Assembly (NCBI GenBank): GCA_016926155.1 | Contig: JAFGPC010000163.1 | Coordinates: forward strand, 1 to 64,000 | Source: Sedimentisphaerales bacterium | GTDB taxonomy: Bacteria; Planctomycetota; Phycisphaerae; Sedimentisphaerales; Anaerohalosphaeraceae | Reading direction: 5' to 3' | Length of the DNA stretch: 64,000 bases | In this document: positions 423 through 19,702 of the stretch, one piece after another | How the letters are laid out: each line of letters begins with the position of its first letter | Position numbering within the stretch: position 1 is the stretch's first letter | Translations under genes and position numbers: made by a program | The notes under the pieces: generated by a model | Seen by the model: only the letters and a program-made list of their open reading frames with translations | Database searches by the model: none | What the model was told of the DNA's origin: nothing

Positions 423-550
423 CGGTTCAATGAACCTTCTTTGGAAGAATAATATGTAACCAGCGTTCCATGGACTGGATTGCATAATTCGGTCATTGAC
501 TCGCTATGGCTTCAGGGGATGGGAGCCGTAGACGGGGAAAGGAGAATCAA

Positions 551-1642
551 GTGAACTTCGCAAGAAGATCCACCAGGCAACTTTGTTGTCTGGGGGGGGT
601 AGTGATTGCTTTTTTGTTTTTGAGCAGCGGTTGCAGCGATAACGTGCAAGTATCGACAGAAGAGCAATTAAAAGAATTTCTTCAGGCCGGCCCACTAGCA
701 CCACAGGTTGATGTAGATGCACTGAATTGCGCTCGCATTATTACCGGCGAGTATCGTCTGGTTCAAGGGGATCTGCTGGAATTACAGATACCTGCCGTAT
801 TGCATACTACAAGCCCATCCAGTAAACCGATTACACCGGGTACGTCCGGGCCTCATCTTTGTCGAGTTCAGGATGATGGAATGATCACTCTTCCCGTTAT
901 CGGCGCGATTGCCGCCGAAGATAAAACCATCTCAGAGATTGAGAAGGCGGTAACAGATGCCTATTATCCCCTATACCTGACCTGGCGGCCGGCAATTGTG
1001 ACGCGAGTGATAGAACCCAGGACCTTTAAGGTTTCTATCACCGGCGCTGTTGAAAAGCCCGGGCTTTACGAATTACGTCACGACCAGATGACTTTGGTCT
1101 CGGTGATTATGGAAGCGGGGGGGATTGTCGAAGACGGTGCCGCTGTGATCCGAATTGATCAAGCGCAAACCGAATCGCCTTTAGTATTGCCGGTCAAGGG
1201 CCTGAATATTCCTTTCAGCGATGTAGTTCTGGCTGAAGGGGCTCAGGTGGAAGTGGAGGGTTTGAATCCGGAGGTCTTCACCGTAGTAGGTTTGGTCAAT
1301 CATCCGGGGGCATACCCGTATCCGGCCAATGTGCGCTATACTCTGATGCAGGCGCTGGCTTTCGCCGGAGGTGTGAATGACATTGCCAATCCTCGCTTTG
1401 TCCGCGTGTATCGATGCAAAACCGACGGAGAACTGGTGGATGCCACTTTTGCTCTGAAGGGCACACATCCGGCCGCCGCTCCAAATGTACTGCTCAAACC
1501 CGGTGATGTTGTGGCGGTGGAGCAAACGCCTCGAACCCATGCCAATCTTCTTATGGCAGAAATGCTTCAACTTCGCATCGGTGCAACGGCACTCGGGACC
1601 TACACCCACTGGGAAGGTAAAGATTTCCGTGATCCTGACTAA
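551..1642 (+). CDS. polysaccharide export lipoprotein, Wza/GumB-like (Poly_export and SLBB domains)
   Basis: The outer-membrane export channel component of a Wzx/Wzy-type exopolysaccharide system. The protein is 363 residues from a GTG at 551, which has GGAGA about 6 bases upstream; an in-frame ATG at 506 would add 15 residues and spoil the signal peptide. The N-terminus has Arg residues, a hydrophobic stretch and a lipobox ending at Cys28 (LSSGC), so it is probably a lipoprotein. A Poly_export domain follows (GEYRLVQGDLLELQIP and the conserved DGMITLPVIG), then two SLBB-type segments (VSITGAVEKPGLYEL and TVVGLVNHPGAYPYP). The Wzc-like kinase gene follows 29 bp downstream, as expected for a Wza-Wzc pair. 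Confidence 0.9.
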   Translation: MNFARRSTRQLCCLGGVVIAFLFLSSGCSDNVQVSTEEQLKEFLQAGPLAPQVDVDALNCARIITGEYRLVQGDLLELQIPAVLHTTSPSSKPITPGTSGPHLCRVQDDGMITLPVIGAIAAEDKTISEIEKAVTDAYYPLYLTWRPAIVTRVIEPRTFKVSITGAVEKPGLYELRHDQMTLVSVIMEAGGIVEDGAAVIRIDQAQTESPLVLPVKGLNIPFSDVVLAEGAQVEVEGLNPEVFTVVGLVNHPGAYPYPANVRYTLMQALAFAGGVNDIANPRFVRVYRCKTDGELVDATFALKGTHPAAAPNVLLKPGDVVAVEQTPRTHANLLMAEMLQLRIGATALGTYTHWEGKDFRDPD

Positions 1643-1671
1643 TTAAGAATAATCTTGGGTGGTGAATTATC

Positions 1672-3867
1672 ATGAGTCAATTTGCAAGTCATGAGAACGT
1701 ACCAGGGTTAAATCAGGAGGAATTACCCGGCGAACGAGGCAAAGGAATCGCGATTCCGGAAAGTCTGTTTCGCATTGCCTGGCGAAACCGGTGGATGATC
1801 CTGGTTTGTGTGCTAGTGAGCCTGGTCGGCGGATTTCTGTATATTCAGAGCGCCACGCCTATCTTCAGTAGCTCCTCGCGCATCTACGTGGAACAAAGCG
1901 GCCCACGGATTATCAGCGAAGTGGAAGGGGTAATGACACAATCCAAAAATTATCTCTTCACTCAGGCCGAATTGTTACGTTCCACTCCTATTCTGATGGC
2001 AACACTGGAAAAAGAAGGAGTGTCACAAATGCGGAGCCTGGCCCAAGCGGATAATCTTATCGCATATCTCAAGAAGGAGGTGGGAGTTACAGTGGGTAAA
2101 AAAGACGATATCATTACCGTTGTCTTTGAATCTCCCTATCCGGCCGAAGCCGCTCATCTGGTCAATACGCTGGTCGATTCCTATGTGACTTACCAAGCCA
2201 GTCGAAAAAAAACAACCTCCGGTGAGGTTCTCAAAATTCTGCAAAAAGAAAAAGTGCGGATTAACACGGAACTCAATGACAAGCTCAAGGCCATAGTGGA
2301 CTTTAAAAAGGAACATGATGCCCTGGCATTCGAGAATCGCAATGGCAACATTATTTTGGATCGACTGGCCAGTCTTTCCCAGGCAGTAACGGAAGCGCAA
2401 TTGGCAACAATCGAGGCCAAGAGCTCCTTTGAAACAGTTCGCCAGATGGTCACGGACCCGGCTAAAGTGGAACAGTGGACTCAGGCGGAACGGGCCAAAG
2501 GAGTCTACGTATCAATGGACAATGAAAAGGTTCGTCTGCTTAACGAACTGGACCGTTTTACCCTGGAGATGGCAGATCTACGGGCGGAGGTAACAGAGGA
2601 CTACCCCGCCGTAAACGTGCTGCAAGACAAAATTGACCATATCAAGGGTAAAATCCGCGAGTTGGAAACCCGCTTCGCCCAAACCCAACTGGCAATTGCC
2701 GAACAAAATTTTAAGGCGGCTGAAATGCGGGAGAAGGAGATTACCGATTACTTCGAACAGCAACGACTAGCCGCAATCGACTTGAATGAACAGCTAGCTC
2801 AGTACGAATTGCTGGACTCGGATTGGCAACAGACCCGAAAATTGTCGGATATGCTGGACGACCGAATCAAGGAGCTGAATGTTACTGAAGATGTCGGCGC
2901 TTTAAATATCAGTATTTTGGAAGTAGCCCGTCCGGAAGATAAACCCAGCAAGCCCAAAAAAGCACAGGTTATGGCGATTGCTTTGGTCCTGGGCCTCATA
3001 ACGGGGACAGGCGCCTCGATTTTCCGGGAATCCATGGATCATCGGCTTCGTTCCGCCGAAGAGATTAACATGATTCTCGGCACTCCCATTCTGGGAACGA
3101 TCCCGTCAATGGGCAGTAAGCAACAGGCCAGCGATCGCAGTTTGATGGTTCATCAGGATTCTTCCTCCACAGTGGCCGAAGCGTATCGTACCGTTCGAAC
3201 GGCAATCTTCTTCGGGATTCCAGAGGGACAGGCAAAGACGATCCTGGTCACCTCCCCTACCAGTGGAGACGGCAAATCCACCCTGGCCTGTAATCTGGCA
3301 ATCGCCATGGCGCAGGCCGGTCAAAAAACTCTCCTGGTGGACTGCGATCTGCGTAAACGTACGATCGATACGCTTCTCAACCTGCCGGGAGAAAACGGCT
3401 TGTCGAACTGGATCGCGGGCCAGATTCCATTTGAGAAGGCGATCCAAAAAACCCAGGCGAAAGGCCTGGATCTATTGGCCGCCGGTTTGGAAGTGCCCAA
3501 TCCTTCGGAACTTCTGAACAGTACTGTCTTTACCCAAAAGTTGAAGGAGTTGACCAGTCAGTATGACCGGATTCTGATCGACTCCCCACCAGTCCTTCCA
3601 GTAACCGATTCGCGGATTCTGGCAGCACTGTGCGATGTAACGGTTATGGTTCTGCGCGCCGGTAAATCGACGCGGAATATGGCGATCCACGCCCGTGAAA
3701 GTCTGGACGCCGTAGGAGCACGCCTATTAGGAGTGGTAGTCAACGATGTGCACCAACGAGGCAACGGTTACGGTTATTACTCGCGCTATGGAGATCACTA
3801 CGGGTATGGCTATGGATATGGGTATGGGTATGGACGGAATCGCAAGGAAAAAAAGGCGGCGAGTTAA
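1672..3867 (+). CDS. polysaccharide co-polymerase fused to BY-family tyrosine kinase (Wzc/GumC-CapB type)
   Basis: A 731-residue inner-membrane protein that sets polysaccharide chain length and autophosphorylates on tyrosine. A Wzz-type first membrane segment lies near residues 42-58, a long coiled-coil periplasmic region fills about 70-430, and a second membrane segment near 436-455 precedes the cytoplasmic BY-kinase. The kinase shows Walker A (TSGDGKST, about 530-537), Walker A' (VDCDLR, about 556-561) and Walker B (ILIDSPP, about 634-640). The last 32 residues are a tyrosine cluster with alternating Tyr-Gly, the usual autophosphorylation tail. The PHP phosphatase gene downstream is the expected antagonist. 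Confidence 0.93.
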   Translation: MSQFASHENVPGLNQEELPGERGKGIAIPESLFRIAWRNRWMILVCVLVSLVGGFLYIQSATPIFSSSSRIYVEQSGPRIISEVEGVMTQSKNYLFTQAELLRSTPILMATLEKEGVSQMRSLAQADNLIAYLKKEVGVTVGKKDDIITVVFESPYPAEAAHLVNTLVDSYVTYQASRKKTTSGEVLKILQKEKVRINTELNDKLKAIVDFKKEHDALAFENRNGNIILDRLASLSQAVTEAQLATIEAKSSFETVRQMVTDPAKVEQWTQAERAKGVYVSMDNEKVRLLNELDRFTLEMADLRAEVTEDYPAVNVLQDKIDHIKGKIRELETRFAQTQLAIAEQNFKAAEMREKEITDYFEQQRLAAIDLNEQLAQYELLDSDWQQTRKLSDMLDDRIKELNVTEDVGALNISILEVARPEDKPSKPKKAQVMAIALVLGLITGTGASIFRESMDHRLRSAEEINMILGTPILGTIPSMGSKQQASDRSLMVHQDSSSTVAEAYRTVRTAIFFGIPEGQAKTILVTSPTSGDGKSTLACNLAIAMAQAGQKTLLVDCDLRKRTIDTLLNLPGENGLSNWIAGQIPFEKAIQKTQAKGLDLLAAGLEVPNPSELLNSTVFTQKLKELTSQYDRILIDSPPVLPVTDSRILAALCDVTVMVLRAGKSTRNMAIHARESLDAVGARLLGVVVNDVHQRGNGYGYYSRYGDHYGYGYGYGYGYGRNRKEKKAAS

Positions 3868-4046: not shown

Positions 4047-4770
4047 TATTCATTGCCATTGTCTTCCGGGACTGGATGACGGGCCAGAAGACATGCCCCA
4101 GGCCCTGCAATTATGTCGAGCGCTCATTGCCGATGGGATTGTTACTGTTGTGGCAACTCCGCATATGCTCAGCCCGGTATCGGATATCACAGATGTGAAA
4201 CATATATATACTATGGCCGACGCCCTGAGAAACGCATTACAGGATGAAGGATTGGAACTAACTGTGCTGGTCGGAGCGGAAGTGACATTGAGCGACCAAA
4301 TCTTCAAATGGCTGGACAAGAATCAACTGCCCACCTTAAATAACGGTCCTTATCTGTTACTGGAACTGCCTTCTTCCATGGTAATGGATATTTCGCCGGT
4401 TCTGGAGCAATTCAAAGAGCGAGGGATGGATTGTATCCTGGCTCATCCGGAACGATTGGGCTATTTACAGAACACCCCTGGCATGCTCCGAAAATGGACA
4501 CAGTTGGGCGCCTGCTTACAAATCAGCGCCGCCAGCCTTGTGACCGGCAGCCGATGGTTTTCCCGCACTCGATCTCTGGCGTGGAAACTGGTGCAGGAAG
4601 GATATGCCACAGTCGTTGCCAGCGATGCTCATGACGCTGATGTTCGTGGACCAATGATTCGTAAGGCATTCCATGCCCTTGTCAAACGACTCGGTTTGGC
4701 GCAAGCCGTTCAATTATGTGTGGAAAATCCAAAGCGGCTGCTTGAAGGAGACAGCCCGGTTCCTTTGTAG
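4003..4770 (+). CDS. PHP-type tyrosine-protein phosphatase, CpsB/CapC/YwqE family
   Basis: A 255-residue metal-dependent phosphatase of the PHP superfamily that removes phosphate from BY-kinases and so regulates polymer synthesis. The metal-binding motif DIHCHCLPGLDDGP lies at residues 15-28 (His17 and His19). ATPHM and GAEVTLSD, LAHPERLGY and ASDAHD supply further expected ligands. The length matches CpsB/CapC (about 240-260). A stop codon lies just upstream in frame, so ATG 4003 is the earliest start. Its position right after the Wzc-like kinase supports the assignment. Confidence 0.88.
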   Translation: MEQDLYNQGPCGFVDIHCHCLPGLDDGPEDMPQALQLCRALIADGIVTVVATPHMLSPVSDITDVKHIYTMADALRNALQDEGLELTVLVGAEVTLSDQIFKWLDKNQLPTLNNGPYLLLELPSSMVMDISPVLEQFKERGMDCILAHPERLGYLQNTPGMLRKWTQLGACLQISAASLVTGSRWFSRTRSLAWKLVQEGYATVVASDAHDADVRGPMIRKAFHALVKRLGLAQAVQLCVENPKRLLEGDSPVPL

Positions 4771-4810
4771 GCTCCAATGTAAAATATATCGAAGAAACTG
4801 TGAATTGACT

Positions 4811-7408
4811 ATGGATGACAGATATCCTGGATTGAAACTTCCTATGACCCGATGGGATTGGGGCATCGAAGGGCTGCTGTATGCATTACTGGCATTTATG
4901 CCGTTTGCCTTCGGCGCCGTCCAGGCCTGGAGCGAACAGGTTGTTATCTTATTGACAACGGCTATTACATTCTGCTTGCTGGCTAAGGCAGTAACCTATC
5001 GCCACTGGCAGTTTCTCTGGACATGGGCTTATATTCCGATTGTGATATTCCTGGCAATCCCGATCCTACAGATGTTGCAATTGCCCATCGAAATAATTCG
5101 TACCATTTCTCCCAACACGGCAATGATCAAGGCCGAATTGATGGAAGGCCTGCCGGGAGCGGAGCGAATGCTGCATTCCATAACTTTAAGTTTCTATCCG
5201 CACGCCACAGCAGCCCAATTCCGAATCCTTCTGGCCATCACGTGTGTCTTCTTCGTGGTGGCCCATGTTTTTCGACGTCGATCCCAGATTAAGCGGCTCC
5301 TTCTGGCCGTAACTATTATCGGCGCCGCTGTAGCCTTATTGGCCGTTACCCAAGTAGTAACCGGTGCGGAAAAGATTTACTGGCAGGTTCCGGTTCCGCG
5401 GAATGCCGCCGTTTCGGGACCCTTTGTCAACGCCAGTCACTATGCCCAATTTATGAATCTTTCGATTGGAGCGGGTTTGGCTTTTCTTTTAGTAATGCTG
5501 CATGAAGCCTTTACCGGGCGTAAACTGACGGTCCCGACAACCCTGGAATTTATCGAGTCAGATATTGGAAAACGATCCTGGCTGCTGGTTGGATTTCTGA
5601 TCATAGCGGCGGCCAGTATTTTTCTTTCGTTGTCCCGCGGGGGGATGATTAGCACCTTGATCGCCGCCACGCTTACCACTGTTTTAGTGACTTCCCGCCA
5701 CTCCGTACGCGGCAAAGGGTGGTTGATATGCCTGATGGCGCTGGGGGCTTTTATTTGCGTTCTCTATATCGGCTTTGAGAGCGTATATGATCGATTGGCA
5801 GCTCTGCGGGACCTGCAAAAAGCGCAGGGTGGTCGCGTACAGATCCTCAAGGATGTTGTCCTGGCCTGGACTAAATATCCGGTTCTCGGAACCGGACTCG
5901 GCACGCATGAAGTGGTCTATCCCATGTTTGACCGTGCTACCGTTCCGACGCTGGCGGCCCATGCAGAAAATGAATATGCCCAGGCCGCCGAAGAGACAGG
6001 ATTTGTCGGCGTATCGGCCCTTGTGTTGCTGGGGGCAGTGGTCTGGCGACGATATTTCCGATGTATCTATACTGCCCAGGTTCCGATCCGTTCGGCAGCC
6101 TACGGACTGGGATTCGGACTGATTGCAATCTTGATCCACAGCTTGAGCGATTTCGGACAACACCTGCCGGCTAATGCTACACTAACGGCAATCTTCTGTG
6201 GGCTCTTGATTGCCTTATCCGATCCGGGTCGATCCCAGAGGGGGACTGCATCGGGTTCCGATAGTAAGCATCGCATCGGAATAGCGGTGTTGATGTTAAT
6301 GGTAGGGATGGGGACATGGAACACGTTCCAGGCCAATAACGCTCGGCTGGCCGAAAAGAACTGGAATCACGTCCAGAGAATTGCATCCTCTCTGGAAGCC
6401 AAGGATTGGCAGGGAAATGATTTTGAGTACGTCGATCTGATCTGTAATGCCGCCGAGGCATCCCGACTGGAACCGACCAATGTCCATTACGCGTACTGGC
6501 TGAATGTCTATCGATGGAAATCGGTCAATCGATACCTTACCGAAGGAACGGCCTCGACGATCCCGCCACAAACCCGGGATGTGGTGGAAAAACTGATTGC
6601 AGAGTTCCAGAAAGTGACTTTGTTATGTCCTACTTACGGACCCGCTTATTGCGTGCTGGGACAACTGGAGCAATTCCAGCAATTTACTCTGAGTAAGCAA
6701 GAAGAACCGGTATTCGGAGAAGACCCGGGATCAACCAATATTCGGAAAGGATACCTTCTTGCACCGGGTGACCCAACCGTTTGTTTTGTAGCCGGCTTAC
6801 AGGAAGCCAATGAAGCGGTCCGTCAAGCTCTGTCCGTTAACCATCACTCCGCCGATCCGAATGAGATGATTATAATAAATAACAGCGACAAACTGGCGGC
6901 GTCCCAGGAAAAGTTTGCGCGCGCAATCAAGCTGGACGAGAAATTGTTTCGGGAAATCGCCGTCATATGCGTGCAAAAGCTGTCCCGGCCGGATTTAGCG
7001 ATTTCACTGGCACAAGATAATCCCTGGCGGTTAAGCTATCTTGTAGGTGTTCTATCCGAACAGGTTGATAACAGCACGATGATACAACAACTCAAAGCCG
7101 AAATAACTACTCAGCTTCAGAAGATGTCTAAACAGGAGAATGTTTCAATCTATGTCATTCTGGCATTGGCTCGAATCTATGCAGATCAGGGTGATTGCGA
7201 TCAAGCGATACAATATTACCATCAAGCACTGGTCCGCGATTATGGACAGGTCACATGGCGAATGGAACTGGCTCGATTGCTGGCTCGCACCGGGCAGGTA
7301 GATCAGGCTTTGCATGAAGCCAGAATCTGCCTGCGTCTGCGAAGTAATTATGGGCCTGCCGTAAAACTGATCGAAAATCTGTCTGTTACATTGCCAAATA
7401 CAAATTAG
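4811..7408 (+). CDS. O-antigen ligase/polymerase family membrane protein with C-terminal TPR region
   Basis: An 865-residue protein from ATG 4811; the open frame extends back to 4673 but that part overlaps the phosphatase gene. The first ~480 residues contain about ten to twelve hydrophobic segments with a Wzy_C (O-antigen ligase) region, including ILKDVVLAWTKYPVLGTGLG and an AAHAENEYAQAAEETGF loop typical of the family. The remaining ~370 residues are soluble and helical, ending in TPR-like repeats (for example YVILALARIYADQGDCDQAI). The family joins or polymerises polyprenol-linked glycans in the periplasm. A second ligase-like gene lies at 16519, so which one is polymerase and which ligase cannot be told from sequence. 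Confidence 0.85.
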   Translation: MDDRYPGLKLPMTRWDWGIEGLLYALLAFMPFAFGAVQAWSEQVVILLTTAITFCLLAKAVTYRHWQFLWTWAYIPIVIFLAIPILQMLQLPIEIIRTISPNTAMIKAELMEGLPGAERMLHSITLSFYPHATAAQFRILLAITCVFFVVAHVFRRRSQIKRLLLAVTIIGAAVALLAVTQVVTGAEKIYWQVPVPRNAAVSGPFVNASHYAQFMNLSIGAGLAFLLVMLHEAFTGRKLTVPTTLEFIESDIGKRSWLLVGFLIIAAASIFLSLSRGGMISTLIAATLTTVLVTSRHSVRGKGWLICLMALGAFICVLYIGFESVYDRLAALRDLQKAQGGRVQILKDVVLAWTKYPVLGTGLGTHEVVYPMFDRATVPTLAAHAENEYAQAAEETGFVGVSALVLLGAVVWRRYFRCIYTAQVPIRSAAYGLGFGLIAILIHSLSDFGQHLPANATLTAIFCGLLIALSDPGRSQRGTASGSDSKHRIGIAVLMLMVGMGTWNTFQANNARLAEKNWNHVQRIASSLEAKDWQGNDFEYVDLICNAAEASRLEPTNVHYAYWLNVYRWKSVNRYLTEGTASTIPPQTRDVVEKLIAEFQKVTLLCPTYGPAYCVLGQLEQFQQFTLSKQEEPVFGEDPGSTNIRKGYLLAPGDPTVCFVAGLQEANEAVRQALSVNHHSADPNEMIIINNSDKLAASQEKFARAIKLDEKLFREIAVICVQKLSRPDLAISLAQDNPWRLSYLVGVLSEQVDNSTMIQQLKAEITTQLQKMSKQENVSIYVILALARIYADQGDCDQAIQYYHQALVRDYGQVTWRMELARLLARTGQVDQALHEARICLRLRSNYGPAVKLIENLSVTLPNTN

Positions 7409-7423
7409 CTTCTTTATCATTCC

Positions 7424-8893
7424 ATGAAGACATATCTGTTCACATTTTGTGGTGCTTTTTTATTGGCTCTCGGCTTTACTCCTCTGGTGATGCTTCTGGC
7501 ATATCGATTCCAATGGGTTGACATGCCTGGCCTGCGAAAGATTCATCGCCAACCGGTGGCGCGACTGGGCGGTATTGCGGTTTTTCTGGCCACATTAGTT
7601 GTTGTTTTCTCGATTCTTTTCTTACCCAACGCCATAGGCGCCTCCTTTCGTGAGATACAATCCAAAGTTCTGATCCTGCTGGGTTGTGGAGTTGTTATAT
7701 TCCTACTAGGCTTATGGGATGATATTCGAGGATTGTCCGCAGGTCATAAGCTCCTGGGCCAGATATTGGCAACGGTGGTGCTGTGCTCGGCTGGAATTCG
7801 TATTAAAACATTCGGCGTCGAAGGATTGTTCCTGCTCAATTTCGGTGTGGAGATGCAATGGCTTCTAACCCTGATATGGGTGATTGGTGTTACCAATGCA
7901 GTGAACTTGATCGATGGGCTGGATGGCTTGGCGGCCGGAATTGCGGCTATTGCCTGTGGCGTGATGGCCGCTCTGGCGGTTTTTACCGAGCTGCGTGTTT
8001 TGGCAGTACTCATGTTGGCCCTGATGGGCGCATTGATTGGCTTTCTTGTTTACAATTTCAATCCCGCCAAGATTTTTATTGGGGATTGCGGTTCTTTGTT
8101 TCTTGGATTTATGCTGGCCGGTTCTTCGATGATGTGTGCGGCCAAATCACATGCGTTGGTAGGTCTGGCATTACCGCTTCTGGCGCTGGGCGTACCGATC
8201 TTCGACACCTTATTGGCCATGTTACGACGATTCCTGCAGCGTCGCGGGATTATGTCTCCGGATCGTGATCATTTTCACCATCGACTCCTTGCGCTGGGTT
8301 TCAAACAACACCACGTCGCCATTATCGCATACGGAATCACCGGCTTAATTTCCACCATGGGCCTGTTTTTGTTGGCAACCCGAAGCATTGGATCCGTTTT
8401 AGTCGCCTTGAGTTGCCTGGTACTGCTGACTCTTGTGTTTCATCTGGCCGGTTCACTACAGCTTCATGAGGCAATGGAAGGAATCCGGAAACAGACCGCC
8501 ATACGTCGAGAGCAAAGGGCCGAAAGGCGAAGCTTCGATCATGCACAATTGCATTTCCGCGAAATTAAAACATTTGATGAATGGTGGCAGGCAATATGTC
8601 AATCTGCCGTCCTGCTGGAATTGTCGTCTTTGTCTTTACCGTTAACACGACGGGATGGATCACATTATGCCCTACACTGGACATCTCCAATGCAGGATAA
8701 AATGAAAAGCCATCCCATTCGTATGGCTATCCCGATTCGAGACAGGCGGACGGATTCTTCGTTACAGGTAGACATTGAGATCACACCCAACGGTTCCCTG
8801 GAATCCGCCGGCCGGCGGGCCGCACTGTTCACCCGACTGGTCGAGGAAAACGGCGTAGAATTGCTCAATCAAACAGAAATTGAATTGTCATAA
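7424..8893 (+). CDS. WecA/MraY-type polyprenyl-phosphate sugar-1-phosphate transferase with C-terminal extension
   Basis: A 489-residue protein of the PNPT family, which transfers a sugar-1-phosphate from a UDP-sugar to undecaprenyl phosphate and starts glycan assembly on the inner membrane. About eleven hydrophobic segments occupy the first ~345 residues. Diagnostic motifs are KIHRQPVARLGG, FLLGLWDDIRGL, NLIDGLDGLAAG (catalytic Asp-rich loop), KIFIGDCGSLFLG and SPDRDHFHHRLLALG. An unusual soluble tail of about 140 residues follows, not part of ordinary WecA. The gene starts 15 bp after the ligase gene. It is the likely initiating transferase of this locus; no WbaP-type transferase is present in the window. 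Confidence 0.9.
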   Translation: MKTYLFTFCGAFLLALGFTPLVMLLAYRFQWVDMPGLRKIHRQPVARLGGIAVFLATLVVVFSILFLPNAIGASFREIQSKVLILLGCGVVIFLLGLWDDIRGLSAGHKLLGQILATVVLCSAGIRIKTFGVEGLFLLNFGVEMQWLLTLIWVIGVTNAVNLIDGLDGLAAGIAAIACGVMAALAVFTELRVLAVLMLALMGALIGFLVYNFNPAKIFIGDCGSLFLGFMLAGSSMMCAAKSHALVGLALPLLALGVPIFDTLLAMLRRFLQRRGIMSPDRDHFHHRLLALGFKQHHVAIIAYGITGLISTMGLFLLATRSIGSVLVALSCLVLLTLVFHLAGSLQLHEAMEGIRKQTAIRREQRAERRSFDHAQLHFREIKTFDEWWQAICQSAVLLELSSLSLPLTRRDGSHYALHWTSPMQDKMKSHPIRMAIPIRDRRTDSSLQVDIEITPNGSLESAGRRAALFTRLVEENGVELLNQTEIELS

Positions 8894-8973: not shown

Positions 8974-10236
8974 ATGACACGACCCGGTTGGATAAAAGCG
9001 TTTATTGTCATTTGTGATCAGGCTTTTCGCAGCGGAACGACGTTATTAACAGGAGTAATTGTCGCTCGAACCTGTACGATCTCCGATCACGGCCTGTTTG
9101 TTGTTGGTTTCACGGCTATTCTATTGGCGAGCAGTTTGCAAGAAACAGTAATCGCCACTCCTCTTTATGTGTTATTGCATGGGAAATCGAACGACCAGAG
9201 ACCGTCTTACCAACGCTCGGTAACTCTTATACAGACTTTGATCGCCTTGTCGGGGGCCCTTGTGATATTCATCATAGGACTTCTCGGATACTTCGGTCAG
9301 AGCCAAACTGCTTCCCTCTTCCTGCCGGCTGCCCCGGTAACCTTTGTTATAATGATGCGCGATTATATCCGACAACATGCCTTTGCGGCTCTACGTCCAA
9401 GCAGAGCGCTTCTGATTGACGGGATGATTGCATTCATACAGCTTGGCCTGCTGACAATCTTGGCATATCGAAGCATGCTCAGCGGCAGTCGCGCCCTTTT
9501 GATAATGGGATTGGCGGCCACGGTTGTCTGTATCATCCCATACTTAATAATGCTCCGGCCGGGTCGTTCAATGGATTGGAATGTTTTTAAAATCACTTTT
9601 CGCGAACACTTTGAATTCGGTCAATGGCGTATCTTGTCCTATATTGTAATCTGGATCGGTTTGCAGAGTTATCCATTCTATCTGATTCGACTGGCCGGTC
9701 AGGAAGAGGCTTCCTATTATGGAGCTTCTCTTCGCATCGCCCTTATCTTCAGCCCTATCATGGCCGGGCTGGTCAATTTTGTTTTACCATTGCTCTCGCA
9801 ACGAATCTCAACACGCGGGGCTTCGGCCTGTCGAAGAATCGTTGTACGTCTATCCCTGGCAGTCATTGCTTTGCTCTCTTTGGTAGTTCTTTTCGTATTG
9901 TTGTTTGGTTCAAGCATTCTGGGATGGCTATACGGCTCACAATATGCTCACACAGACAATATTCTGCGTCTGCTTGTAATCGCCGCCGCTATTCATAATT
10001 CGGCATTCTGTATTGGTCTTGGTTTTCTCGCCGAACGCAGGCCCTGGCTGGACTTTCAGGGATACGGCCTAGCCTTGGTCGCCTCTTTGCCGGTAGGTCT
10101 GTATTGTAGCATCCACTACGGCGCCCAGGGGGCCGCTTGGGGATATCTCCTGTGTACAGTGACAGTAACGATCTATCGCTGGTGGATTTTTTTGCGACAA
10201 CCCCTTTCCGTAAAACCGGCGGTGAATCCATCCTGA
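8974..10236 (+). CDS. Wzx-like oligosaccharide flippase (MATE/MOP superfamily)
   Basis: A 420-residue, almost wholly hydrophobic protein with about twelve predicted membrane segments, the size and pattern of polysaccharide flippases. It starts with IVICDQAFRSGTTLLTGVIVAR, a typical first helix of this family. It would move lipid-linked repeat units across the inner membrane. The stop codon overlaps the start of the next gene (TGATG), so translation of the two is probably coupled. Assignment rests on topology and context rather than a signature motif. Confidence 0.8.
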   Translation: MTRPGWIKAFIVICDQAFRSGTTLLTGVIVARTCTISDHGLFVVGFTAILLASSLQETVIATPLYVLLHGKSNDQRPSYQRSVTLIQTLIALSGALVIFIIGLLGYFGQSQTASLFLPAAPVTFVIMMRDYIRQHAFAALRPSRALLIDGMIAFIQLGLLTILAYRSMLSGSRALLIMGLAATVVCIIPYLIMLRPGRSMDWNVFKITFREHFEFGQWRILSYIVIWIGLQSYPFYLIRLAGQEEASYYGASLRIALIFSPIMAGLVNFVLPLLSQRISTRGASACRRIVVRLSLAVIALLSLVVLFVLLFGSSILGWLYGSQYAHTDNILRLLVIAAAIHNSAFCIGLGFLAERRPWLDFQGYGLALVASLPVGLYCSIHYGAQGAAWGYLLCTVTVTIYRWWIFLRQPLSVKPAVNPS

Positions 10237-12992
10237 TGAATCCAACAATAATGGAACAACACGTTACGAAGGAAACAAGCCCCGATGTAGAGAGCAGAAT
10301 TCTGCAAACCCTGTTTGACCGGCTCAATCAGAACTCTATTCGATATTGTGTACTTCGCAATTATGCTTCTCTGCCATACACTCTGGACGGCAGCGATATA
10401 GATATGCTTATTGATCCGTTCGATATGAATCGTGCCGCGTCTGTGATCGAATCGGTTGTTCGCGAATTCCATGGAAAACGTATTTGTGATTACGCTGTTC
10501 ATACCCATATCGTACGGTACTGTGGATATGTAGAAGGGGCCTGGTGGTCGCTCCCGATCGATCTTTTTTCTGATCTGGAATACCGCGGCCTTCCCTACTT
10601 CGATGCACAGGAAGTATTACATCGTGCCCGATTGCATAACGACGTCCGTATCGCTTCGGCAGAAGATGCCTGCTTTATCATATTTCTAAAAGATCTTCTT
10701 TTTAACGACCGGGCCCGAAATGGTATTACAGAAAAAGCATATCCGGCGTACAGACAGAATGAACAGGTATATAAGCCTCTGCTGGAAAACATATTTGGAA
10801 AACGGTCTACGGAATTTCTAATCCTCTGCTTGTCAGGAAAAAACGAAATTTATACCCGGCGATCTCTCGCACATCGCTTACGAAGATCGCTGAGCATTCG
10901 CAGCCTTCAGAGAAAGCCGCTATGGACATTGAGGTGTCGTTGTTCTAATATGATACAGAGACTTGGACGACTATTCCGTCGTCCGGGTTTCTGGGTGGTC
11001 GTTCTTGGCACCGATGGCAGCGGGAAAAGCACCATTCTCGACGGAATCGAGCCAGTGATGGAATCCGCTTTGCATAATCGGATCCAACACGGTCATATCC
11101 GTCCCCACTGGTTGCCAAGTCTGGCCCGGTTATTCGGTCAACCAGAACAGCAAGGACCTGTCTCCAATCCCCATGAAAGCCGCCCTTCGGGATTCTTAGG
11201 TTCTTTGTTTCGCCTGGTGTATTATTCCTTGGATTACACACTCGGATATTGGGGCAGGGTGTATCCTTCCCTGGTCAAAAGACCTGCATTATACGTTTTT
11301 GATCGCTATTACTATGATTTTATTCTGGATCCGCGCCGTGTCCGGCTGGCCTTGCCGGGATGGATTACCCGCATCATGGGAGCCATGATCCCAAAACCGG
11401 ATTTGATTCTCTGTTTGGGAGCCGATGCGGAACAGATTCATGCCCGAAAACCGGAGCTGCCCCCAAAGGAGATAGATAGGCAGGTCCATTCTCTGAAACG
11501 ATTCTGCGCTGCACATAAGCGAGCCTTCTGGATTGATACGGGAGGTTCAATCGAACAGTCTTTAGATCAGGCCCTGGAGGCAATCACCTCTGCAATGGCC
11601 TCAAGATATCCAATGAGGCAAGTTTCAGGAACCGATACGTTCTGGAAGATTCTTCTGCCTCATCCATCCTTCGACGGGATTTTGACACATGAAATTGAAC
11701 AAGAGGTCCTTGACGGACTGAAGCATTGTTATGATATTGTCGATGCGACGCCGCGCCGACCACAATATCATATGCTGGTAACGGGATCAAACCATCGAAA
11801 AGAGCAAATCTGGTTGCCTTTACTTGATCGCATACGAAAGGATGGATACTTTGTCTTTACCGGTCGATACCCGGGCAAGAGATTGCTCCGAAAAGCCGGT
11901 TTAACGGTTATGTCACGTTATGCAGGTTTGCCGGCACATCGGCCGCGGCTTTTTATACCGTTGCAATCAGCTCAAGGCACAAATAGAGGATTATTATTTC
12001 ATGTACCGGGCAGCCGCAAATTACGATTCACCTGGAGTATAGTCAGGTTTCTTGCTCGACTTGGAATCCAAAAACCCTTACACCATTACACGATTACGTT
12101 GTGTTCGAGAAACCGCTGTACCCGGCAACCAAATGACCTAATCGCATTTCTCAGCAAATGTCTGGGATATCCTATTGGCGATCTTGTATTGTATGGCGGA
12201 TCGGATACGCCGCAGAGAAAAACGACGGTTTTGGCTTTGGCAACTGACGATGGACAGGATGTTGTTGTTAAAATCGCCGATACCGATATGGCCAAAAAAG
12301 CCCTTAAACAAGAGACAGATGCACTGCGAAAACTGGCTGATTCCCCTCTTACCGGGCAAGTACCAAAATTACTCTTCGAGGATCATTGGCGGGAGTACAC
12401 TTTACAGGTTCAGCAAAAATGTCCGCTGCCATCGAGAAGACAGATACCTACGCTCACTCCGATTCATACGGCCTTTCTAGTAAAGTTAACGGAACAGGGA
12501 AAACAAACAATCCCGATTGCTCAGACCTCGGTATGGAAACAAATTCAAGACGCCTTTGACAATAGGAACGGCCCGGTTTCTCTATCCGTACAACAACTTC
12601 TTACCCGGGTGCTGTCGGATGGCTTTGCCCACTCCCCAGTGATTTGTCACCGTATCCATGGGGATTTTGCCCCTTGGAACATCCGGCTGCATCGCGAAAA
12701 AATCATGGTCTATGACTGGGAAGACAGTGAACCGAAAGGCGTTGCATTTACGGATACTTTTCATTTTCTGTTCCGGCAGGCATGGCTTGTCGGCCCCTGG
12801 CCGGGTGCAGATGCTATGATTCGAAAGATGCGGGCCACCGCCGAATTACTGGCTGAAAAAGCCGAAATCGACAGAATCATGATCGACAGGGCCCTGCCTC
12901 TCTGGGCGCTGGCGCAGTTCCTGCATGCGCCATCCAATCCGATTGTCCAGATCATTACCTTTCTGGGAGACGAGTTTGTCGCGAAGACTTAA
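10236..12992 (+). CDS. multidomain protein: nucleotidyltransferase-like, thymidylate-kinase-like P-loop and APH-like kinase
   Basis: A 918-residue protein from ATG 10236, which overlaps the flippase stop by one base. The N-terminal ~200 residues resemble a minimal nucleotidyltransferase (GSDIDML, from residue 52). A P-loop kinase follows with Walker A GTDGSGKST at 258-266 and a DRYYYDF motif further on, like thymidylate kinases. Residues about 490-640 are a less clear domain that vaguely recalls a methyltransferase fold. The C-terminal ~270 residues are an aminoglycoside-phosphotransferase/choline-kinase-like kinase with Lys679 (VVVKIA), HGDFAPWN starting at His808 and a DWE metal motif at Asp827. 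The key residues look intact. No function is known to me for the combination; its place suggests phosphorylation or activation of a sugar, polyol or lipid carrier for the polysaccharide. Confidence 0.8.
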   Translation: MNPTIMEQHVTKETSPDVESRILQTLFDRLNQNSIRYCVLRNYASLPYTLDGSDIDMLIDPFDMNRAASVIESVVREFHGKRICDYAVHTHIVRYCGYVEGAWWSLPIDLFSDLEYRGLPYFDAQEVLHRARLHNDVRIASAEDACFIIFLKDLLFNDRARNGITEKAYPAYRQNEQVYKPLLENIFGKRSTEFLILCLSGKNEIYTRRSLAHRLRRSLSIRSLQRKPLWTLRCRCSNMIQRLGRLFRRPGFWVVVLGTDGSGKSTILDGIEPVMESALHNRIQHGHIRPHWLPSLARLFGQPEQQGPVSNPHESRPSGFLGSLFRLVYYSLDYTLGYWGRVYPSLVKRPALYVFDRYYYDFILDPRRVRLALPGWITRIMGAMIPKPDLILCLGADAEQIHARKPELPPKEIDRQVHSLKRFCAAHKRAFWIDTGGSIEQSLDQALEAITSAMASRYPMRQVSGTDTFWKILLPHPSFDGILTHEIEQEVLDGLKHCYDIVDATPRRPQYHMLVTGSNHRKEQIWLPLLDRIRKDGYFVFTGRYPGKRLLRKAGLTVMSRYAGLPAHRPRLFIPLQSAQGTNRGLLFHVPGSRKLRFTWSIVRFLARLGIQKPLHHYTITLCSRNRCTRQPNDLIAFLSKCLGYPIGDLVLYGGSDTPQRKTTVLALATDDGQDVVVKIADTDMAKKALKQETDALRKLADSPLTGQVPKLLFEDHWREYTLQVQQKCPLPSRRQIPTLTPIHTAFLVKLTEQGKQTIPIAQTSVWKQIQDAFDNRNGPVSLSVQQLLTRVLSDGFAHSPVICHRIHGDFAPWNIRLHREKIMVYDWEDSEPKGVAFTDTFHFLFRQAWLVGPWPGADAMIRKMRATAELLAEKAEIDRIMIDRALPLWALAQFLHAPSNPIVQIITFLGDEFVAKT

Positions 12993-14202
12993 AATTCTGA
13001 TCTCGGCCTACGCCTGTGAACCGGATACAGGCTCCGAGCCGGAAGTGGGATGGCAATGGACACGGCAAATTGCCGGATTTTCCGATGTATGGTTGGTGAC
13101 AAGAACCAGCAACAGACAGGCTATCGAAATGGTCCTGAAAAAAAATCCGATCGATGGCCTTACTGTTATTTATTTTGATCTTCCGAAAAGTCTTCGATTC
13201 TGGAAGAAAGGGCATCGGGGATTATATCTGTATTACAGCATTTGGCAATATCTCATCTTCTGTAAAGTCCGTAAACTTCACAAGCAAATTCATTTTGATA
13301 TCGTACATCATCTGACGTATGGAAACATGCTGATGCCTATGTTTTTGTCCCATATGGACGCCCCTCTGGTCTGGGGGCCAATTGGGGGAGGTGAGTTGGT
13401 TCCAAAGGAGTTCCGAAAATCCTTGTCCTTTCGAGGAAGATTTCATGAATATTGTAAAGACCTTGCTCTGGCCGGCATGCGTTTTAATCCACTGATTTGC
13501 CATCCCAAAAATACCGATGCAATTATTGCTAAAACGAAAGAGACGGCACATCGTCTTGGCTTAACATCACAAGAAAATATCACAATTACTACGGACGTCG
13601 GTGCAGAGGAAGAAAGGATTATAGCGGAACGCAATCTTCCGACGGATGAAATCCGTTTTCTTTGTGTAGGCCGATTGCTGTATTGGAGAGGTTTCGATCT
13701 TGCTATTCAGGGATTTGCCCATGCAACGAAACAGATACCCGGCATGCATCTGTCCATCATCGGAGACGGACCGGAAAAAAAACGCTTGCAGAATATCGTG
13801 GCTTATCATGCCATAGCGGATCGTGTTTCATTCGAAGGAACTGTATCTCGTGTAGAATTGAAAAAACACATGGCTGTAAGCACAGCGTTATTGAATTCCT
13901 GCTTAAGGGAGGGGGGTGTCACCATATTTCACGAAGCGTTGAATTTCGGATTACCTGTGATTTCCCTGGATGTCGGAGGAGCGACGAATCTAATTGACAG
14001 CGAATGCGGCATTAAAATAAATCGCGGCACTCCAAAACAGGTCATTCGAGATATCGCCGGGGCTATCGCTTCTTTGGCAGAAAATCCTCTACAAGGACAA
14101 AGGCTGGCCCGTGAGGGAAGAAAACGATTACTGGAAGAGTGCCGATGGGACCAAAAGGGGAAGTTAGTAAATCGTGTATATCAAAGGGTTTTAAAATTAT
14201 AA
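12976..14202 (+). CDS. glycosyltransferase family 4 (GT-B fold)
   Basis: A 408-residue glycosyltransferase. I chose a TTG at 12976 because GGGAGA lies 5 bases upstream and the protein then opens with the family's usual [18 protein letters not shown] segment; it overlaps the end of the previous gene by 17 bases. The C-terminal half carries the nucleotide-sugar binding half of the GT-B fold ([19 protein letters not shown] and the [17 protein letters not shown] loop with the E-x7-E pattern). The donor and acceptor sugars cannot be predicted. It probably adds one sugar to the lipid-linked repeat unit on the cytoplasmic side. Confidence 0.88.
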
Positions 14203-16518: not shown

Positions 16519-17799
16519 ATGAGAACAAGACACCCTATTGTCAATTGCTTGCTTGATTCGGGTTGGCCGGGCATACTTTTATTAAGCTGGCCTATTTTAC
16601 TTCTGTTCGTGTCCCGTGAACGCGATATGGAGGCGTATAGCAATCTGGATGAAGCGGCTTATGCCCAAATCGCCTTTCTTGCCGTCTGTGGTCTATATCT
16701 TCTTTTCGACCAACAACTTTATTGGATGGATAACCTGAAGATATTTTTCCGGCGACCCATTCTGTGGGCAACAGTATATGGATTCATTTGTCTGTTGAGC
16801 TCGTTCTGGTCTTCCCATTGGCAATTGACGTTATACCGAAGTGTTGAAAGTATGATTATGCTGTTACTGTTGGGGCGACTTGTACAGCACATGGATCTGA
16901 ATTTTGAAAAACTGCTCGACTGGACGATTCTCTGGGCCATTGTTATGATGATCTTCAAAGGGGGGACCTCTATCCTTTTTAATACAGACAAGTCCAATAT
17001 ATTTATGATGTTACGCGGTTTCAGCAATCTGACTTTAGGCCCCGTCATCATCCCGATTTTGTTTCTTTCCCGCAGACGCATAATTACAGTATGTTTATTG
17101 ATTCTTGGTCTATTGTCTCTGTCCCACAAGTTTTATCTCGGCCTTGGAGCAGGTTTTATAGCCATGGCCCTCTTTTGCCCTGAAGAGAGGACGATGCGCA
17201 ATGTTGGTGTTTTCGTAATTTTCGGAATCACTCTTCTTCTGTCGGCTTTTGGCACAACCAAACTGATTTCTTATGCCTCCTTCACAAAGACAGAAGAAGA
17301 CATTCTAAGCGGCAGTGGACGTACTTATCTCTATTCCGAATATTATCATAAAATCAAAATGTCACCCTATCTTGGATATGGATATGTCGAAGGAGAACAC
17401 GTTGAAGTGCCTGAACTGGGTTTTATAGCCCCATCCGCCCACAATTCCATTCTATCCGGTTTGATGACAGGGGGAATACCTGGAGGGATTATGGTTTTTG
17501 CCTTTTTTTGGGACCTGATTGGTTTGAGCCATCGTCGCATCATTCATCCCAGAGTTCGATCGTCCTTGTTCGGCGGAGCAATAATGACTCTGATTGTTTC
17601 CCTTTTGGGACCGGGCTTCGGTTCTCGTGTAAACGGCGGTTGGATTTCCACCATCATTCTGGGCATGCTCGTAATCATTGCAACTTATCGAGGAAGTGAA
17701 TATTCGAATCCTAATCATACACAATCGATACGGTATCTACAGCGGGGAAGAGTCCGTAGTAGATGCGCAGGAACAGCTACTGCGCGATCACGGTCATGA
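16519..17799 (+). CDS. O-antigen polymerase/ligase-like membrane protein (Wzy type)
   Basis: A 426-residue protein with about ten hydrophobic segments and a Wzy_C-like periplasmic loop (GSGRTYLYSEYYHKIKMSP, then PSAHNSILSG) that carries the conserved Arg and His of O-antigen ligases. It probably polymerises repeat units. Its last ~35 residues are read through sequence that encodes the N-terminus of the downstream glycosyltransferase in another frame: the overlap is about 104 bases, and the final residues (Arg/Ser/Thr-rich) look non-native. Either a long real overlap or loss of the original stop by a small indel explains this. Confidence 0.82.
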   Translation: MRTRHPIVNCLLDSGWPGILLLSWPILLLFVSRERDMEAYSNLDEAAYAQIAFLAVCGLYLLFDQQLYWMDNLKIFFRRPILWATVYGFICLLSSFWSSHWQLTLYRSVESMIMLLLLGRLVQHMDLNFEKLLDWTILWAIVMMIFKGGTSILFNTDKSNIFMMLRGFSNLTLGPVIIPILFLSRRRIITVCLLILGLLSLSHKFYLGLGAGFIAMALFCPEERTMRNVGVFVIFGITLLLSAFGTTKLISYASFTKTEEDILSGSGRTYLYSEYYHKIKMSPYLGYGYVEGEHVEVPELGFIAPSAHNSILSGLMTGGIPGGIMVFAFFWDLIGLSHRRIIHPRVRSSLFGGAIMTLIVSLLGPGFGSRVNGGWISTIILGMLVIIATYRGSEYSNPNHTQSIRYLQRGRVRSRCAGTATARSRS

Positions 17800-19702
17800 C
17801 GTGTTCCGATTCGAACGGAGCAGCACCGAAATCGAAGTTATGCGCTTTGGAAAACTGCTTGCGCTTCTAAGCGGAATTTTTAATCCCTATGCGCGGCGAA
17901 AGATACACCGTCTATTAAAGAAATACCAGCCGGACGTGGTGCATATTCATAACTTGTACCCATTGATCTCGCCATCTGTGCTAAGTCCCTGTCGCCGGGC
18001 AGGCGTGCCGGTTGTGATGACGGTTCATAATTATCGACTTGTCTGTCCCAATGGATTACATCAAGTCAAAGGAAAGATCTGCGAGCGGTGTTGTGGAGGC
18101 AGGGAGTACTGGTGTTTTTTAAATAATTGTATGGGTAGCCGGGCCAAAAGTCTGGGATATTTTCTGCGAAACTGGTCGGCCCGACTATTGGGAGCATACC
18201 GGAAGAACGTCACTGTTTATGCTTGTCTCACTCAGTTTCAGAAAAATCGCTTAATCATGGAAGGATTTCCCGCAGAGCGTATTCGTGTCATTCCCAATAT
18301 GATCCCAACCGTGCCCACAGAAATCAGTGAAGGCAAATACATTGGATTTGCAGGGCGATTAAATCATGAAAAAGGCATCAAGACATTAATTGAGTGTGCC
18401 AAACAGACCCCGGAGATTCCATATAAAGCCGCCGGCAGCGGTTCCAATTTATCGGAGCTTGCCGCCGAGGTGCCGGCAAACTTCCAATTTCTGGGACAAC
18501 TCCGGCCGGAACAAATGAAAGATTTCTATCGAAACTGTCGTTTTCTTGTACTGCCCAGTGAGTGGTTCGAAGGACTTCCAATGGTCCTTCTGGAAGCTAT
18601 GGCACACGGAAAGCCGCTAATCGCCTCTCAGTTGGGTGGAATACCGGAAATTGTGGAAGAGGGCAAAACCGGATTATTATTCGAGCCAGGAAAGTCAAAA
18701 AAATTGGCGGAAAAAATAAAAGCTCTATGGGAAAATCCGGATGCATGTCGTTCTATGGGACAGGCCGGAAGACAAAAAGCCAGAAAAGAATATTCATACC
18801 AGAGACATTACGAACGATTATCGCAAGTTTATGAGGAGGCAATTTCTCTCGGATCCGGCGGTATAAGGATTCGCGCAAAAGAAAATACAAACAAAAGAAA
18901 AATTATTCAATCTATCACGGAAGAGAACTGGGCACATTCGAGTAAGTCGATTTCACCCAATGCCATTCTGGGAGTCAGATTCAACTTGACCAATGCCGAC
19001 CAAGCAGTACAGATGGTCTTGCAGTGGAGGCAGCAAGGACGGAAAGAAATGGTGATGTTCGCACCTCCCCATAGCGTATTGATCGCGAGACGGGATCAAC
19101 GTATGCGAGCCGCTTTAGCCAAAGCCGCTCTTGTTCTGCCGGATGGCGCCGGGATCATTCTTGCAGCCAAAATTCTGGGGTATAACCACCTTGGTCGAGT
19201 GACCGGTCCTAATTTTATGTTGGAGTTATGCGATAAGGGACGTCAGGCCGATCTAAAACATTACTTTTACGGAGGCGCCCCGGGTGTCGCGAAAAAACTC
19301 ATCGACGTCCTTAGTAACAAATACCCCGGCTTACATGTGGCAGGCCATTTTTGTCCACCTTTCCGAGAATTGACTGCCTCCGAAGATAAGCAAGTGATTC
19401 AAACCATTAATCATGCTCAACCGGATGTATTATGGATAGGGCTAGGAGCCCCAAAACAGGAAAAATGGATGCTGGATCACTTTGAAACAATTCAGGCGAC
19501 AGCTATGCTGGGTGTTGGAGCCGCTTTTGATTTTCATTCCGGTCAGGTCAAATGGGCGCCTCCCCTGGTCCGATCGCTCGGCCTGGAATGGGCGTGGCGA
19601 TTGGGACACCAGCCAAGACGAATGGTAAAGCGAAATCTGGACAGCCCTCGCTTTATATATCATGTTCTCCAACAGCGTATCTCTGCCAGGAATATCTCCT
19701 GA
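17696..19702 (+). CDS. bifunctional glycosyltransferase: GT4 fused to GT26 (WecG/TagA/CpsF)
   Basis: A 668-residue protein in two parts. Residues 1 to ~385 are a GT4 enzyme (start MNIRILIIHNRYG, GGIPEIVEEGKTGLLF in the donor half, PSEWFEGLPMVLLEAM with the family E-x7-E pattern). Residues ~420-668 are a WecG/TagA/CpsF enzyme with the conserved VLPDGAGIILAAKILG, GPNFMLELC, YFYGGAPGVAKKL, WIGLGAPKQEKWM and GVGAAFDFHSG blocks. GT26 enzymes transfer ManNAc, ManNAcA or related sugars to lipid-linked GlcNAc. I chose GTG 17696 because it fits the family N-terminus; the AGGA before it is closer than usual, so the start is not certain (TTG 17678 is an alternative). Confidence 0.85.
   Translation: MNIRILIIHNRYGIYSGEESVVDAQEQLLRDHGHDVFRFERSSTEIEVMRFGKLLALLSGIFNPYARRKIHRLLKKYQPDVVHIHNLYPLISPSVLSPCRRAGVPVVMTVHNYRLVCPNGLHQVKGKICERCCGGREYWCFLNNCMGSRAKSLGYFLRNWSARLLGAYRKNVTVYACLTQFQKNRLIMEGFPAERIRVIPNMIPTVPTEISEGKYIGFAGRLNHEKGIKTLIECAKQTPEIPYKAAGSGSNLSELAAEVPANFQFLGQLRPEQMKDFYRNCRFLVLPSEWFEGLPMVLLEAMAHGKPLIASQLGGIPEIVEEGKTGLLFEPGKSKKLAEKIKALWENPDACRSMGQAGRQKARKEYSYQRHYERLSQVYEEAISLGSGGIRIRAKENTNKRKIIQSITEENWAHSSKSISPNAILGVRFNLTNADQAVQMVLQWRQQGRKEMVMFAPPHSVLIARRDQRMRAALAKAALVLPDGAGIILAAKILGYNHLGRVTGPNFMLELCDKGRQADLKHYFYGGAPGVAKKLIDVLSNKYPGLHVAGHFCPPFRELTASEDKQVIQTINHAQPDVLWIGLGAPKQEKWMLDHFETIQATAMLGVGAAFDFHSGQVKWAPPLVRSLGLEWAWRLGHQPRRMVKRNLDSPRFIYHVLQQRISARNIS

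Follow-up and report, generated by a model that had tools for sequence, protein, structure and literature searches.

The closest described counterpart of the system reported here is the lic pathway of pneumococcus and Haemophilus (LicA, LicC, LicD and TacF), in which LicA is the kinase of phosphocholine decoration. The product of this kinase ends on a glycan, and a MOP flippase, TacF, monitors the modification (PMC4364537, PMC13385700). We analysed the first 64,000 nucleotides of contig JAFGPC010000163.1 from a Sedimentisphaerales bacterium (hereafter the window), where a single open reading frame within a polysaccharide locus encodes a protein of 918 residues, free of internal stops, that joins a nucleotidyltransferase-like module (NT), a thymidylate-kinase-fold module (TK) and an APH/choline-kinase-like module (APH). 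Together these modules constitute a recurrent, undescribed three-enzyme unit of glycan loci, which we propose may work by analogy with the Lic/TacF pathway without being a member of it. The two have in common a kinase of the same fold, LicA being the best solved match of the APH profile, the involvement of a transferase of nucleotidyltransferase fold, and a modification that precedes a MOP flippase. They differ in that TK has no counterpart in the lic pathway and choline is not indicated as the substrate; in addition, neither NT nor the stand-alone NT proteins matched LicD (PF04991) at E values up to 10, and none of the examined loci had a recognisable LicC.

Searches of the full chain against Pfam, NCBIfam and, as a single sequence, the Protein Data Bank (PDB) revealed the APH module and a weak P-loop match only, with APH alone above the Pfam cut-off, so that recognition of NT and TK needed profiles, AlphaFold models and Foldseek. 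No single database family was found to cover the whole length of the protein, and a search of the open-access literature for thymidylate kinase with glycan terms returned no relevant paper, in agreement with the view of a first-pass annotation of this DNA, which knew of no described function for the combination. The same annotation had placed three nucleotide-using modules with intact motifs, and these were found where it put them (GSDID, with D54 and D56; GTDGSGKST at residues 258–266; HGDFAPWN at 808–815; DWE at 827–829). Profiles and structure models supported each of the three, and the motifs are not chance matches, their catalytic residues being conserved in approximately 80–97 relatives.

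The TK module (approximately residues 250–456) has the fold of thymidylate kinases. A profile of 41 relatives matched thymidylate kinases (TMPK) in the PDB with a best E value of 7.5e-13, PF02223 and TIGR00041 matched 35 and 33 of the 41 members, respectively, and an AlphaFold model of residues 1–462 (pLDDT 90) matched TMPK structures in Foldseek. The module shares with thymidylate kinases the fold, the Asp of the P-loop, the DR motif and the RK(x)E lid with its lid Arg, and G261, K264, R357, D361, D365, R404 and E407 are present in 98–100% of 97 relatives. It differs from them in that the thymine-recognition motif SSxAYQ is replaced by DxxxDPxR (DFILDPRR in the window), whose residues D361, D365 and R368 are found in 98–99% of the same relatives. 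Moreover, a canonical tmk gene, above the cut-off and with SSxAYQ intact, is present elsewhere in the source genome. Judged from its sequence, TK is therefore not a thymidylate kinase but a kinase of TMPK fold that probably acts on another acceptor.

We regard the NT module as a probable distant relative of pol-beta-type nucleotidyltransferases. Residues 1–200 gave no direct match to any Pfam family, and the NT profile produced only sub-significant matches in the PDB, such as the putative nucleotidyltransferase TM1012 (E 1.2). When compared by hhalign with nucleotidyltransferases of the PF10706/PF14907 type, it reached probabilities of 95–96% with the DxD motif and the third Asp all aligned, against ≤1% for TK and APH used as controls. 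Three conserved acids define catalysis in the nucleotidyltransferase fold (PMC11646218), and these carboxylates were present in most of 93 relatives (D54, 98%; D56, 98%; D109, 91%). In the confident AlphaFold model, helices and strands follow one another in a way that fits a nucleotidyltransferase; among the Foldseek matches listed for the model of NT and TK together (residues 1–462), all were TMPK. NT differs from the PF14907/PF10706-type proteins in its fusion to a kinase and in lacking the canonical GG/GS motif before DxD, which reads LRNY in the window and is variable in relatives (LHGY, LRNA, VGR).

For the APH module (approximately residues 645–918), PF01636 was above cut-off in the window protein and was found in 35 of 38 relatives. 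Its model matched APH(3')-Ia in Foldseek (E 1.7e-6), and the best profile matches were ACAD11 and pneumococcal LicA (4r77, E 1.3e-4). Among 79 relatives, H808, D810 and N815 were invariant, D827, E829 and D840 were also conserved at 99–100% (D827 at 99%), and in the N-lobe K679 and E693 were retained in 94% and 99%. What sets this module apart from other members of the PF01636 family is its N-terminal accessory region, its partnership with NT-TK and its location in a glycan locus instead of a resistance context. The accessory region had been suggested in the first-pass annotation to be a fourth, methyltransferase-like module at residues 490–640, and this part did not hold. No SAM-binding motif (motif I, GxGxG) was found in 80 middle regions, the lone match of the motif search not being such a motif, and no methyltransferase Pfam family was matched in 38 members, so a class I SAM methyltransferase was rejected. 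From its modelled alpha/beta structure, the region could be a degenerate Rossmann-type remnant.

The distribution of the unit is described from Planctomycetota genomes and from 80 loci that were obtained by scanning ~85,000 species genomes; individual loci are given L or G numbers, and one copy of each duplicate (L056=G104, L058=G647, L064=G256, L096=G237, L129=G299) was dropped from neighbour clustering and from the tree. The comparison with split homologues, a check proposed in the first-pass annotation, proved fruitful: in most relatives the parts are split, NT-TK and APH being encoded by separate side-by-side genes, and each half is present in a single copy in the source genome. Fusions in the order of the window protein were found in L040, L063 and L123, fusions in the opposite order (APH-NT-TK) in nine Bacteroidota loci, and partial fusions in L132 (TK-APH) and L112 (APH-NT). 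On a quick NT-TK tree four changes were required to explain the NT-TK-APH fusions, and branches with strong support left no way around at least three of these, while the APH-NT-TK fusions clustered apart; fusion in the order NT-TK-APH thus arose independently at least three times. The scan took both the P-loop and the HGDF motif as seeds and ordered its results by whole-chain match, so the co-occurrence in this sample is biased. When loci with full flanks were ascertained by TK only, 15 of 19 had APH no more than 8 kb away on the same strand, and in nine it was adjacent. Likewise, a search of 392 Planctomycetota genomes with the NT-TK profile alone matched 17 genomes other than the source, and APH was also there in 10 of the 11 that had NT and TK at the locus. 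Occurrence of the unit is patchy, with 18 of 392 Planctomycetota genomes having it, and spread across scattered phyla; the nearest relative of the window protein, L054, is a Desulfobacteraceae sequence (44% identity). This pattern suggests transfer between lineages. No relatives were found in viral contigs.

Several variants of the unit were recorded. In gut Clostridia a second, stand-alone NT protein directly follows NT-TK (L088, 9625–10467; L108, 9269–10198; L127, 9337–10185). In L042 (4145–5743) TK is joined to a different, divergent kinase with GDFTLSN and VDPG motifs in place of the usual APH, possibly a non-orthologous replacement. A metagenome-assembled contig of Jingweiarchaeum (Nanobdellota) carries NT-TK, the glycosyltransferase GT4a and APH at 36% identity (L055, 7944–12456), reflecting either transfer to archaea or contamination. 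In a small TK-only clade the order is GT4, TK and an AlkP-superfamily protein resembling phosphodiesterases and nucleotide pyrophosphatases (L217, 7546–9685; L223, 7539–9650), and these loci may reveal the phosphate chemistry of TK.

Through the partners to which its modules are fused, the unit is linked to flipping and to glycosyl transfer. Flippase-NT-TK fusions were found in three genomes (L035, L036, L038) and a fusion of a MatE-type flippase to TK in L102, the flippase partners being homologues of the one encoded next to the fused gene in the window; the APH of L099 also appears, from its sequence, to have a flippase-like N-terminus. Fusions to GT4 glycosyltransferases comprise NT-TK-GT4 in L084 and L097 and APH-GT4 in L109, and the GT4a gene that follows the fused gene in the window is present in about half of the loci, lying between NT and TK in L048 and L049. 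NT-TK is fused to an acetyltransferase on two occasions. A hexapeptide-repeat acyltransferase joined to NT-TK was seen at L094 (7908–9824) and L119 (7260–9122).

What was observed are the modules, their conserved active sites, and the fact that they are repeatedly associated and fused among themselves and with Wzx flippases and GT4 enzymes. On this basis, the explanation that we prefer, although tentatively, is that the unit carries out cytoplasmic phosphoryl and nucleotidyl transfer in Wzx/Wzy assembly, adding a phosphorylated substituent to the lipid-linked repeat before it is flipped. The three modules would act on one substrate, and the following order of steps and phosphate substituent are what we infer for it. 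The APH/choline-kinase-like domain would phosphorylate a hydroxyl of a small alcohol, a sugar or a glycan residue; the TMPK-fold kinase would phosphorylate a phosphate monoester, either the APH product or, in recycling, a nucleotide released later; and NT would move a nucleotidyl or phospho-X group by means of its three metal-binding acids. In the outcome, the lipid-linked repeat, or else the donor for the adjacent GT4, would bear a phosphorylated substituent, which would be complete by the time the repeat is moved over the membrane by the flippase. This is close to the earlier suggestion, which may itself hold, of a carrier, sugar or polyol that is phosphorylated and then activated. A more specific version is a conceivable but rather doubtful extension: in an undescribed, widely transferred pathway, NT, a repurposed TK and the choline-kinase-like enzyme would work one after another on a single intermediate, and the flippase would require the resulting phospho-linked substituent, possibly a diphosphate or nucleotidyl one.

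Several points weigh against our preferred explanation. No specific sugar-biosynthesis gene was common to all loci. Replacement of the GG/GS motif makes classical NT catalysis uncertain. In addition, no APH was detectable alongside NT-TK in four of the 19 TK-ascertained loci with full flanks. In the clade of L217 and L223, TK lacks both NT and APH and is followed by the AlkP-superfamily protein, and TK-APH was found without a detected NT in L116. The TK-only clade and L116 imply that the three enzymes are not strictly obligatory to each other, and TK may be the core with NT and APH as partners.

The best-surviving alternative is that the unit supplies a donor instead of decorating the lipid-linked repeat: APH and NT would make a nucleotide-activated block, TK would recycle the nucleoside monophosphate to the diphosphate, and the neighbouring GT4 would use the product. 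Donor activation usually involves the pairing of a kinase with a nucleotidyltransferase, a nucleoside monophosphate kinase fold suits recycling, and the position of GT4a beside the unit in many loci and between NT and TK in L048 and L049, as well as the GT4 fusions, would be accounted for. However, known NDP-sugar pyrophosphorylases have other folds, and the flippase fusions suggest action near the flipping step, so we consider this alternative somewhat unlikely.

The fusion in the window could, on the other hand, be an assembly or sequencing artefact in which a false indel joined two overlapping genes. A vestigial ATGA, typical of neighbouring genes that overlap, is kept at the junction between NT-TK and APH, and in L054 the two parts are separate genes overlapping by 5 bases, which places the window fusion one indel from a gene pair; it may accordingly be a recent event or an assembly or consensus error. 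We judge an artefact unlikely given the independent fusions in L040, L063 and L123 and the reverse-order fusions in Bacteroidota, and even if it were one, the three-enzyme unit would be unchanged, since it stands independently of whether this particular fusion is genuine.

The other explanations fared worse. A regulatory or defence role, in which NT and the kinases would modify protein or tRNA (as in AbiEii/MenT-type systems with kinase antitoxins) and merely lie near glycan genes, agrees with the distant affinity of NT to PF10706/PF14907-type proteins, but the consistent siting inside glycan loci across phyla and the fusions with flippases, GT4 enzymes and acetyltransferases make it very improbable. 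Just as improbable is that TK, with the other domains as accessories, serves as a local thymidylate kinase feeding dTDP/dTTP to dTDP-sugars: the TMPK fold and the rml genes that adjoin a relative on a Leisingera plasmid would fit, but the thymine pocket is altered, a canonical tmk is already available, and APH and NT are left unexplained. Finally, a chain terminator like WbdD of Escherichia coli O9a, in which a methyltransferase and a kinase cap the non-reducing end with methyl phosphate, would fit the alpha/beta region that precedes a kinase in a glycan locus and recalls a degenerate methyltransferase core. It is likewise very improbable given the absence of a SAM motif from 80 middle regions and of a methyltransferase family from 38 members, the additional NT and TK, and a locus of Wzx/Wzy appearance, whereas WbdD serves O-antigens exported by ABC transporters.

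As had been recognised in the first-pass annotation, the surroundings of the fused gene form a polysaccharide locus, and its operon-like run includes the initiating transferase, flippase, polymerase, Wzc-type protein and exporter of a Wzx/Wzy-dependent system. The genes follow the order exporter, Wzc-type, CpsB, Wzy with TPRs, WecA-type, flippase, fused gene, GT4, hexapeptide transferase, two methyltransferases, a second Wzy-type protein and a GT4-WecG fusion (Table 1). Two Wzy_C-type proteins are thus encoded, that with the TPR tail and another at 16519–17799, which could represent a polymerase plus a ligase, or two polymers. In many related loci, the GT4 and WecG/TagA/CpsF parts of the last gene are encoded separately by two neighbouring genes.

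Table 1. Features of the polysaccharide locus and of the fused protein, in window coordinates.
Feature	Position	Strand	Remarks
Export protein (Poly_export/SLBB) and Wzc-type chain-length/tyrosine-kinase-like ATPase	506–3867	+	
Wzy/O-antigen-ligase domain protein with C-terminal TPRs	4673–7408	+	
WecA-type initiating phosphoglycosyl transferase	7424–8893	+	
Wzx-type polysaccharide flippase	8974–10236	+	Translationally coupled to fused protein
NT-TK-(accessory)-APH fused protein	10236–12992	+	Start ATG shares bases with flippase stop (TGATG, in tccTGATGaa)
NT module, probable distant pol-beta-type nucleotidyltransferase	10236–10835	+	D54/D56 at 10395–10403; third acid D109 at 10560–10562
TK module, thymidylate-kinase-fold P-loop kinase	10983–11603	+	Walker A 11007–11033; DRYYYD 11301–11318; RKPEL lid 11445–11459
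NT-TK/APH junction	11604–11621 (also given as 11601–11621)	+	Vestigial ATGA at 11613–11616
Accessory alpha/beta region	11622–12170	+	Residues ~463–645; core RYAGLPxxRPRLFIPL
APH/choline-kinase-like kinase	12168–12989	+	K679, E693, HGDFAPWN 12657–12680, DWE 12714–12722, D840
GT4 glycosyltransferase (GT4a)	12925–14202	+	Overlaps 3' end of fused gene; recurrent neighbour of the unit
GT4 fused to WecG/TagA/CpsF glycosyltransferase	17678–19702	+	Recurrent in related loci

The association of NT, TK and APH across phyla suggests a step, so far undescribed, by which surface sugars would acquire phosphate chemistry before their export. If this is so, such chemistry would have been overlooked on many surface polysaccharides of diverse bacterial phyla, gut Bacteroidota and Clostridia among them, and the enzymes responsible would be among the proteins that NCBI annotation now labels "hypothetical protein" and "phosphotransferase". 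The repeated fusions would provide a concrete, testable enzyme, with three active sites on one polypeptide, and a rule for naming many genes.

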